Assembly: GCF_026004115.1 (NCBI RefSeq)
Contig: NZ_BPIM01000001.1
Location: 248,001-312,000 of the forward strand
Reading direction: 5' to 3'
Source: Meiothermus sp.
GTDB lineage: Bacteria; Deinococcota; Deinococci; Deinococcales; Thermaceae
Length of the DNA: 64,000 nucleotides
The notes under the pieces were generated by a model. It did no database searches, had not been told where the DNA came from, and worked only from the letters and a program-made list of their open reading frames with translations. Made by a program: the position numbers and the translations under genes. Numbering within the stretch: the stretch's first letter is position 1; each line of letters starts with the position of its first letter. Of the stretch, positions 57,101 to 58,429 are shown in pieces.

Positions 57101-58429
57101 ATGATTCGCTACTACAGCACCCGCGACCCCCACAAAAACCTGGTGCGCTTCGAGGAGGCCCTGCTCAAAGGGCTAGCGCCGGACGGCGGCCTGTACGTAC
57201 CTGACCAGATTCCCAAGCTCGACCCAGACCTGTGGCAGCGGGCCAACTCCATTGCCGAGGTGGGAGTGGCGGTTCTGAGAGAATGGCTGAAGGATGAAAT
57301 ACCTCTGGCCGACCTCGAGGCCATCGTGCGAGATGCCCTGAATTTTCCCTGCCCGCTGGTGAAGCTCTCGGACGATTTATATGTGCTCGAGCTTTTCCAT
57401 GGCCCCACCCTTTCCTTCAAGGATTTTGGCGCCCGCACCATGGCCCGCCTGATGCAGTATTTTCTGCGCAAGCGGGGCGAGCGCCGCATTATTTTGGTGG
57501 CCACCTCCGGCGACACCGGCAGCGCAGTGGCCGACGGCTTTGCAGGCCAGGACAACATCGAGGTGGTGCTGCTCTACCCCAAGGGCAAGGTGAGCGAGGT
57601 GCAGGAACGCCAGCTCATCACCGAGCGCCAGGGCGTGCGCAGCTTTGCCGTGGAGGGCACCTTCGACGACTGCCAGCGCATGGTCAAGGAAGCTTTCGTA
57701 GACCCCGAGCTTTCGCACCTGCCCCTGAGCAGTGCCAACTCCATCAACATCGGGCGGCTGTTGCCGCAAGCCCTTTACTATCTGTGGGCCGCCGGTCAGA
57801 TCAACAACCGCCCCCTCTCCCCTACGGGGGGAGGGGGCCGGGGGGTGGGGGCGGAAATCAACTTTTGTGTTCCCAGCGGTAACCTAGGCAACCTTATGGC
57901 CGGCGTGCTGGCCGCCCTGATGGGCCAGCCGGTGCACCGGTTTATCGCTGCCCACAACGACAACCACTTCTTCCCCGACTTCCTGCAGGGCAAAGTTGAG
58001 GCCTATCAGTTCCACCCCACCATCGCCACCCTATCCAACGCCATGGACGTGGGCTCGCCCAGCAACTTCGAGCGCCTGTACACGCTTTTGGGGAGTGAAC
58101 GGCTGCGTTCGTGGATTTGGGGAACCACTGTCTCCAACGAATCTACGCTCGAGCGCATGAAAGAAACCCACGATAAATACGGCTATACCGCCTGTCCGCA
58201 CACCGCCGTTGGCCTGGAGGCCCAGACGCGTTACCGCCGGGAAACCGGCGACCCCACCCCCCTCATCAGCCTGGCCTGCGCCCATCCAGCCAAGTTCCCG
58301 GACGTGGTCTTGCGGGCCCTGGGCCAAGAACCTCCCAGGGAGGAGGCTCTGGAAAGCCTGTATAGCCGCCCCACCCGCGTACAAACCATCGGCGCTACCC
58401 TGTCCGCCCTCAAGGCCCACTTACTGTAG
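57101..58429 (+). CDS. thrC: Threonine synthase with in-frame palindromic insertion
   Basis: PLP enzyme that makes threonine from O-phosphohomoserine. The PLP lysine lies in GPTLSFKDFGAR near residue 107, and ATSGDTGSAVADGF and SSANSINIGRLLPQ are conserved. Around residues 235-252 the family sequence GQIN-FCVPSGN is split by a glycine-rich insert (RPLSPTGGGGRGVGAEIN) encoded by a 57-bp palindromic insertion flanked by ATCAAC. No homoserine kinase gene was seen nearby. TATGAT lies about 15 bp before the ATG, so the transcript may have a very short leader. Confidence 0.93.
   Translation: MIRYYSTRDPHKNLVRFEEALLKGLAPDGGLYVPDQIPKLDPDLWQRANSIAEVGVAVLREWLKDEIPLADLEAIVRDALNFPCPLVKLSDDLYVLELFHGPTLSFKDFGARTMARLMQYFLRKRGERRIILVATSGDTGSAVADGFAGQDNIEVVLLYPKGKVSEVQERQLITERQGVRSFAVEGTFDDCQRMVKEAFVDPELSHLPLSSANSINIGRLLPQALYYLWAAGQINNRPLSPTGGGGRGVGAEINFCVPSGNLGNLMAGVLAALMGQPVHRFIAAHNDNHFFPDFLQGKVEAYQFHPTIATLSNAMDVGSPSNFERLYTLLGSERLRSWIWGTTVSNESTLERMKETHDKYGYTACPHTAVGLEAQTRYRRETGDPTPLISLACAHPAKFPDVVLRALGQEPPREEALESLYSRPTRVQTIGATLSALKAHLL
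57800..57862 (+). repeat. Palindromic element inserted in thrC
   Basis: ATCAAC occurs at 57800-57805 and 57857-57862. Between lie CCCCCTCTCCCC, a TAC loop and GGGGGGAGGGGG, followed by GGGGGGTGGGGGCGG. The insertion is exactly 57 bp (19 codons) and keeps the frame. A related element lies at about 15357-15390. Confidence 0.7.

Follow-up and report, generated by a model that had tools for sequence, protein, structure and literature searches.

REP sequences with RAYT transposases (REPtrons) are short hairpins that flank a small, mostly low-copy nuclease gene, with others scattered, and the partner of these hairpins is a Y1 HuH transposase. MITEs resemble the motif considered here in that they are short, repeated and hairpin-forming, with no coding of their own. 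Protein-coding palindromes are known in Rickettsia, Wolbachia and Methanocaldococcus; the Rickettsia and Wolbachia elements (Ogata et al., as summarised in PMC2996958) lie in frame in unrelated housekeeping genes, in segments that are non-structured in the protein. Triplex motifs (TM or TMECO, earlier PIT) were described in more than 260 bacteria by Holder et al. in 2015, who reported triplex formation in vitro and tied the motifs to local instability; in E. coli K-12 the TMs were reported to be intergenic in every case, and mobility genes were not found nearby (PMC4666352). A class II TM consists of consecutive blocks Y-R-R' of 6-15 nt, separated by loops of 1-6 nt, with at most one mismatch. 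Triplex-forming repeats are common in bacteria, and the agent of their spread has hitherto been unknown. The palindrome in the thrC gene of a Meiothermus genome, described here, is best read as a protein-coding palindrome that resembles those of Rickettsia in what it does and belongs to a TM family with ties to DUF559.

The window, which is the whole stretch of DNA that was analysed, is 64,000 nucleotides long and corresponds to G000:C1:248001-312000 of the source genome (G000), a nearly closed Meiothermus assembly of 3 contigs that is close to M. hypogaeus. Its thrC (57101..58429, plus strand, as are all window features given below) encodes a threonine synthase of 442 aa. A G/C palindrome lies in frame in this gene at 57808..57854 and contains, at 57811..57851, the arrangement CCCCCTCTCCCC-TAC-GGGGGGAGGGGG-CC-GGGGGGTGGGGG. 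The pyrimidine arm (57811..57822) and the purine arm (57826..57837) of a hairpin, both assigned from the sequence and its fold, are followed by a G-rich third strand (57840..57851). We searched for such motifs with a strict three-block test (blocks of 8-13 nt, loops of 1-6 nt, no more than one mismatch overall), which was adopted because a G-rich pattern with 2 mismatches gave 42 matches in the source genome against 34 in its control, near background. The thrC motif has all three blocks, with loops of 5 and 3 nt, 11 triads, 1 mismatch in the duplex and 0 in the third strand, within the class II limits on loops and mismatches. Its occurrence exceeds chance expectation: it is the only strict site in the 64-kb window, while 30 first-order Markov controls built from the window gave 0 matches, as did 467 kb from 97 thrC loci of other genomes. 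The outer palindrome arms, CCGCCCCC at 57808..57815 and GGGGGCGG at 57847..57854, pair with each other in an alternative fold. As single-stranded DNA, the palindrome folds better than 200 of 200 shuffles (z -2.9), and a search of Rfam gave no match close to the gathering threshold. By its anatomy, the palindrome is a class II intrastrand-triplex motif, namely a hairpin with a predicted G-rich third strand.

The host gene is otherwise intact. The thrC frame is uninterrupted, Thr_synth_N, PALP and the C-terminal domain (THR4_C) are all present according to the ORF list and Pfam, and the gene is single-copy in its genome (one match in a genome search). An AlphaFold2 model of ThrC, built from 35 orthologues, has a mean pLDDT of 93.9, and residues 243-249, in the loop that the TM encodes, are its sole stretch with pLDDT below 50. 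In the model the loop follows helix 217-235 and precedes strand 253-258; aligned with the nearest solved threonine synthases, this position falls in a gap of those structures. Predicted disorder is confined to this loop, and ThrC is very probably still a working enzyme in its presence. The contention of the initial annotation that a palindromic element is tolerated in frame in a core enzyme is upheld, and the thrC copy represents a triplex repeat tolerated inside core metabolism. Retention of the TM would be explained by a length that leaves the frame intact, by the lack of an in-frame stop codon, and by the fact that a disordered loop is all that it adds.

We compared the site with 17 congeneric thrC genes (18 genus genomes, counting G000). 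The position of the insert is a helix-strand linker of variable length, and the full TM is found in 1 of the 18 genomes, G000. The thrC gene of the sister species M. hypogaeus (G003, NZ_QWKY01000002.1) is 96.4% identical in nucleotides, gapped columns left out, and its linker reads QL-HSRLQSEA-VNFC, with the eight residues HSRLQSEA. Because this linker resembles that of another congener, G016 (QL-HNHPQSEA-VNFC), the TM-bearing linker is the derived one, on the G000 lineage. The segment that differs from the sister linker spans 57806..57856, between two ATCAAC words, with true boundaries that are uncertain because the linker itself has diverged. The initial annotation had described a 57-bp palindromic insertion that split a conserved GQIN-FCVPSGN segment and added 19 residues. 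The palindrome and its reading frame stand; a clean 57-bp event is not supported. The net gain over M. hypogaeus is 10 residues (30 bp), and orthologues have a variable linker where a conserved segment was supposed to be interrupted. Judged from the alignment, the TM replaced an older short linker, and the conserved GQINFCVPSGN was not its landing site.

The two ATCAAC words, at 57800..57805 and 57857..57862, are indeed present, and their interpretation as a target duplication was rejected on three counts. A third ATCAAC lies at 57743, 57 bp upstream, within conserved SINIGR codons. M. hypogaeus has CTGCAC...GTCAAC at the two positions; the upstream word is not conserved in the relatives except G001 (GTCAAC), and the downstream word matches the (V/I)N codons conserved in the host gene. 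Finally, removal of 57 bp implies an empty site (YYLW-AAGQINFC-VPSGN) of 8 residues, whereas the shortest measured orthologue has 12, a minimum from the parsed sequences, which are about half of the wider orthologues. The target-site duplication against an empty site that marks a classical MITE or transposon was thus not found at thrC, and the thrC copy differs from MITEs in showing neither this duplication nor transposase-type terminal repeats. The genus genomes compared showed neither a polymorphic insertion nor a clean empty site for the thrC TM. We have high confidence that the insert in thrC is a TM and that the G000 lineage gained it. The same linker contains in-frame tandem repeats (SHLSGS/SNPAGE) in thrC of Bacteroidales (four loci), where the flanking motifs are as many as 49 residues apart.

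The thrC of G001, a distant congener, bears on the route by which the TM arrived. G001 belongs to another clade of the thrC tree than G000, and the closest relatives of the two have QLH... linkers, yet both genomes share GTCAG-RTCAAC upstream and 19 identical nucleotides, GGGTGGGGGCGGAAATCAA (57843..57861), in the 3' part of the insert, G001 reading CAG-GTCAAC-TCGCTCGGGGAAAGGGTGGGGGCGGAAATCAATTTT. The linker of G015 is similar (GGGGAAAGGGTGG; related stretch GGGGGGAAAGGGTGG). Either this linker was hit more than once, or an allele passed between species by short conversion, and the 19 shared nucleotides leave direct insertion or short gene conversion as possible routes into thrC. According to the second, natural transformation would have delivered a short homologous tract from the thrC of another Meiothermus that already had the TM, and G001 would be a decayed relative of the donor allele. 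The tract would have to be shorter than about 90 bp, as both flanks match M. hypogaeus, and G001 lacks the actual TM hairpin. A TM array in the source genome has GGGGTGGGGGCGTAAATC, close to the thrC end GGGGTGGGGGCGGAAATC, and parallel gain of a like element is therefore plausible. We regard conversion as unlikely, though well worth weighing, and a DUF559-type route as the one that the thrC copy would have taken.

Copies elsewhere in the source genome were counted from pattern searches and from individual stretches that were read. Searched against its own genome, the whole insert (63 bases) found its own site and otherwise chance-level pieces only. TMs are repeated all the same: ten strict ones lie in the frame of a DUF1156 DNA methylase, ten copies of a TM-bearing repeat are present, and there are two more TM-like sites. 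The DUF1156 methylase is a single frame of 1340 aa (G000:C1:660.4-662.9 kb), compared with 971 aa in M. hypogaeus. Relative to that protein it has four in-frame, TM-made insertions (net +95, +230, +7 and +31 codons), each of which took the place of a short linker. The +95 insertion contains a tandem array of 36-bp units, and the +230 insertion has a complete DUF559 domain (aa 610-716) in frame between TMs. Closest to the situation in thrC is the +7 insertion, which consists of one TM (ACCGACTCCCCTCTCCCAGCGGGAGAGGGGCAGGAGGTGAGGGTC). That only in-frame copies remain in needed genes would follow from selection to keep the frame open.

The in-frame palindrome therefore occurs in unrelated genes of one genome, thrC and the DUF1156 gene, when each is compared with M. 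hypogaeus. As in Rickettsia and Wolbachia, the insertions are palindromic, in frame and located in non-structured segments of the products. The likening of the thrC palindrome to the Rickettsia elements in the initial annotation was thus right in kind, the same motif class being in frame in an unrelated gene, but probably not as to family membership; by anatomy it is a TM. The phylum is another one, and the G/C-run composition, the third strand and a candidate partner nuclease are particular to the Meiothermus motif. Anatomy would set it apart from the Rickettsia palindromic element (RPE) families, and a sequence match to them is not expected from its composition. RPEs are also longer than the thrC TM.

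Three further observations concern the repeats of this genome. The DUF1156 gene (G000:C1:659770-663792, minus strand) is part of an island that also encodes a large ATPase and a helicase, in a defence-like neighbourhood. The TM-bearing repeat is about 110 bp long and was located at ten G000:C1 sites (651767, 1009369, 1184325, 1327177, 1378102, 1492439, 1731991, 1734609, 2068132 and 2363720); the five copies that were read have terminal inverted repeats GCAGCGTCGTATAG / CTACGACGCTGT and are MITE-like. A larger conserved repeat, GCAACCGCAAGGCCAGAAAACCACAAGGCACACTC-TM-TAGTGAGCAAAGCG..., with the TM mid-element, is found at G000:C1:1455635 and 638160 and in M. hypogaeus.

The 36-bp arrays of the DUF1156 gene look like multiplication by slippage, and the thrC linker is hypervariable and repeat-prone, with the in-frame SHLSGS-type repeats of Bacteroidales at the same place. 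The linker could in principle have grown locally by replication slippage at G/C runs, with no mobile element involved. This is improbable given the exact three-block geometry at thrC, the tail GTGGGGGCG(G/T)AAATC, which is like that of the TM array at G000:C1:661.5 kb, the lack of matches in any of the 30 Markov controls, and the single TM of thrC, where there is no array. The G-rich linkers of G001 and G015 might point to a functional loop that threonine synthases of Thermales had from the outset. Such an ancestral loop is very hard to reconcile with its absence in 15 other congeners, a different linker common to M. hypogaeus and G016 and a pLDDT below 50 in the loop; it was rejected. The insert is lineage-specific, and the refuting condition given in the initial annotation, the same loop in all Thermales thrC genes, does not hold. 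That the full motif occurs in one genome only could suggest that the G/C-rich hairpin is an error of sequencing or assembly, which is scarcely credible with an intact frame, 19 nt common to another genus genome and a nearly closed assembly.

The surroundings of DUF559 genes were examined for TMs. DUF559 (PF04480) is the YcjD family and has been grouped with Vsr in the PD-(D/E)XK nucleases (PMC1189080); a solved relative is 3hrl (E 6e-22). The raised TM density expected around DUF559 was found in two collections. In Deinococcota, 41.2 kb around 27 strong DUF559 loci contained 33 strict TMs (13 of the 27 loci with a TM), compared with 6 in 400 kb of background from the same genomes, that is, 0.80 against 0.015 per kb, an enrichment of about 50-fold. 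In a plasmid collection, 19.8 kb around 13 DUF559 loci, from Deinococcus, cyanobacteria and alpha- and gammaproteobacteria, contained 25 strict TMs (9 of the 13 loci). Strict TMs were absent from 18 of the 40 loci, while a looser test for the hairpin alone was positive at 21 of the 27 Deinococcota loci. TM-like hairpins were also present in G003, G010 and G013, where no strong DUF559 match was found. A link of DUF559 with repeats was not found in the open literature by title, abstract and term search, and may exist elsewhere. The densities indicate that TMs and DUF559 probably belong together.

Individual loci show the association in several forms. A stand-alone DUF559 gene of G009 lies between hpaE- and hpaB-like genes, and its two ends carry TMs that are inverted to each other. 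In G108, DUF559 and flanking TMs are in frame within DUF1156, at another position than in G000, and a 1621-aa methylase of Pseudanabaena galeata (Eco57I domain) has DUF559 and ten strict TMs in frame. Most E. coli genomes have the DUF559 gene ycjD between sapF and fabI, and in the one copy that was read a TM (CCCTCGCCCCTCTGGGGAGAGGGTTAGGGTGAGGGG) follows about 190 bp downstream. Nissle 1917 was considered as a clean empty site for ycjD and rejected, as other genes occupy the position. The hairpins around DUF559 genes in many bacteria suggest that these enzymes help the hairpins to spread, even into essential genes.

The arrangement in G009, with hairpins flanking the DUF559 gene in inverted orientation and others scattered, recalls REP sequences and their RAYT. 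The Y1 HuH tyrosine transposase that accompanies REPs was not found as the TM-flanked gene, however; this is DUF559, PF04480, a PD-(D/E)XK protein (DUF559/YcjD; PMC1189080) related to 3hrl. The TMs described here share with those of Holder et al. the class II anatomy of pyrimidine arm, short loop, purine arm, short loop and G-rich third strand. In contrast to the intergenic TMs of E. coli, they lie in frame in thrC and in a methylase and are linked with DUF559.

We propose the following order of events as the most likely mechanism, of which the end products are what is observed. A TM hairpin would be exposed on single-stranded DNA at the fork, and DUF559, or general repair, would cut at or near it. 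Repair would then copy the TM to a nearby or new site with the loss of a few host bases, which fits the replacement of a linker with no target duplication. Slippage would extend some copies into arrays, and copies would survive selection only where they are in frame, free of stops and placed in a surface linker. On this view TMs would be mobile, and DUF559 would act on the hairpin, by a nick or cleavage and copying during repair, to spread and multiply the motif. That DUF559 drives the movement of TMs is a tentative proposal, which we would put at nearly even. The chain as a whole, in which a TM entered a permissive ThrC linker in the G000 lineage in place of a short linker, through DUF559-linked spread, seems to us reasonably probable. 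The broader notion is held more cautiously: DUF559 (YcjD) nucleases and triplex hairpins might constitute a novel type of mobile system with a wide distribution, comparable to RAYT/REP though built on a different nuclease fold, which inserts hairpins, and sometimes the nuclease domain, in frame into coding genes, the thrC palindrome included.

The DUF559 link is the part likely to interest specialists. The thrC TM led to a consistent partner, and its representative in E. coli K-12, ycjD, is open to direct testing. The TMs also add a route from palindrome to protein: sequence is gained in frame in surface linkers, to the extent that entire nuclease domains come to lie within defence-type methylases.

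Some neighbourhoods of DUF559 deserve separate mention. In another Meiothermus (G008:C122:59000-64500), the gene immediately downstream of thrC and convergent with it is a DUF559 gene that has TM-like hairpins. Both Meiothermus and Deinococcus plasmids have DUF559 genes within or next to 4-hydroxyphenylacetate (hpa) genes (three loci), and on cyanobacterial plasmids (four loci) DUF559 is beside or inside DUF1156 or PglX-type methylase genes, an arrangement also seen in Meiothermus. The CCCTCTCCCCTTGCGGGAGAGGG hairpins that abound in G009 and G016 were considered as TMs and set aside, as they mostly belong to a different element of about 100 bp (CAGGCTTTTATCGTTTTCCCCTTTCCCTCTCCCCTTGCGGGAGAGGGTGGCGACAGCGCC...; 34 and 41 copies, respectively), a hairpin that has no third strand and whose arms fit the TM pattern. 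Near G012:C2:604203, five hairpins (CCCTCCCTACNCAGTAGGGAGGG) with 95-bp spacing adjoin a DUF559 gene.
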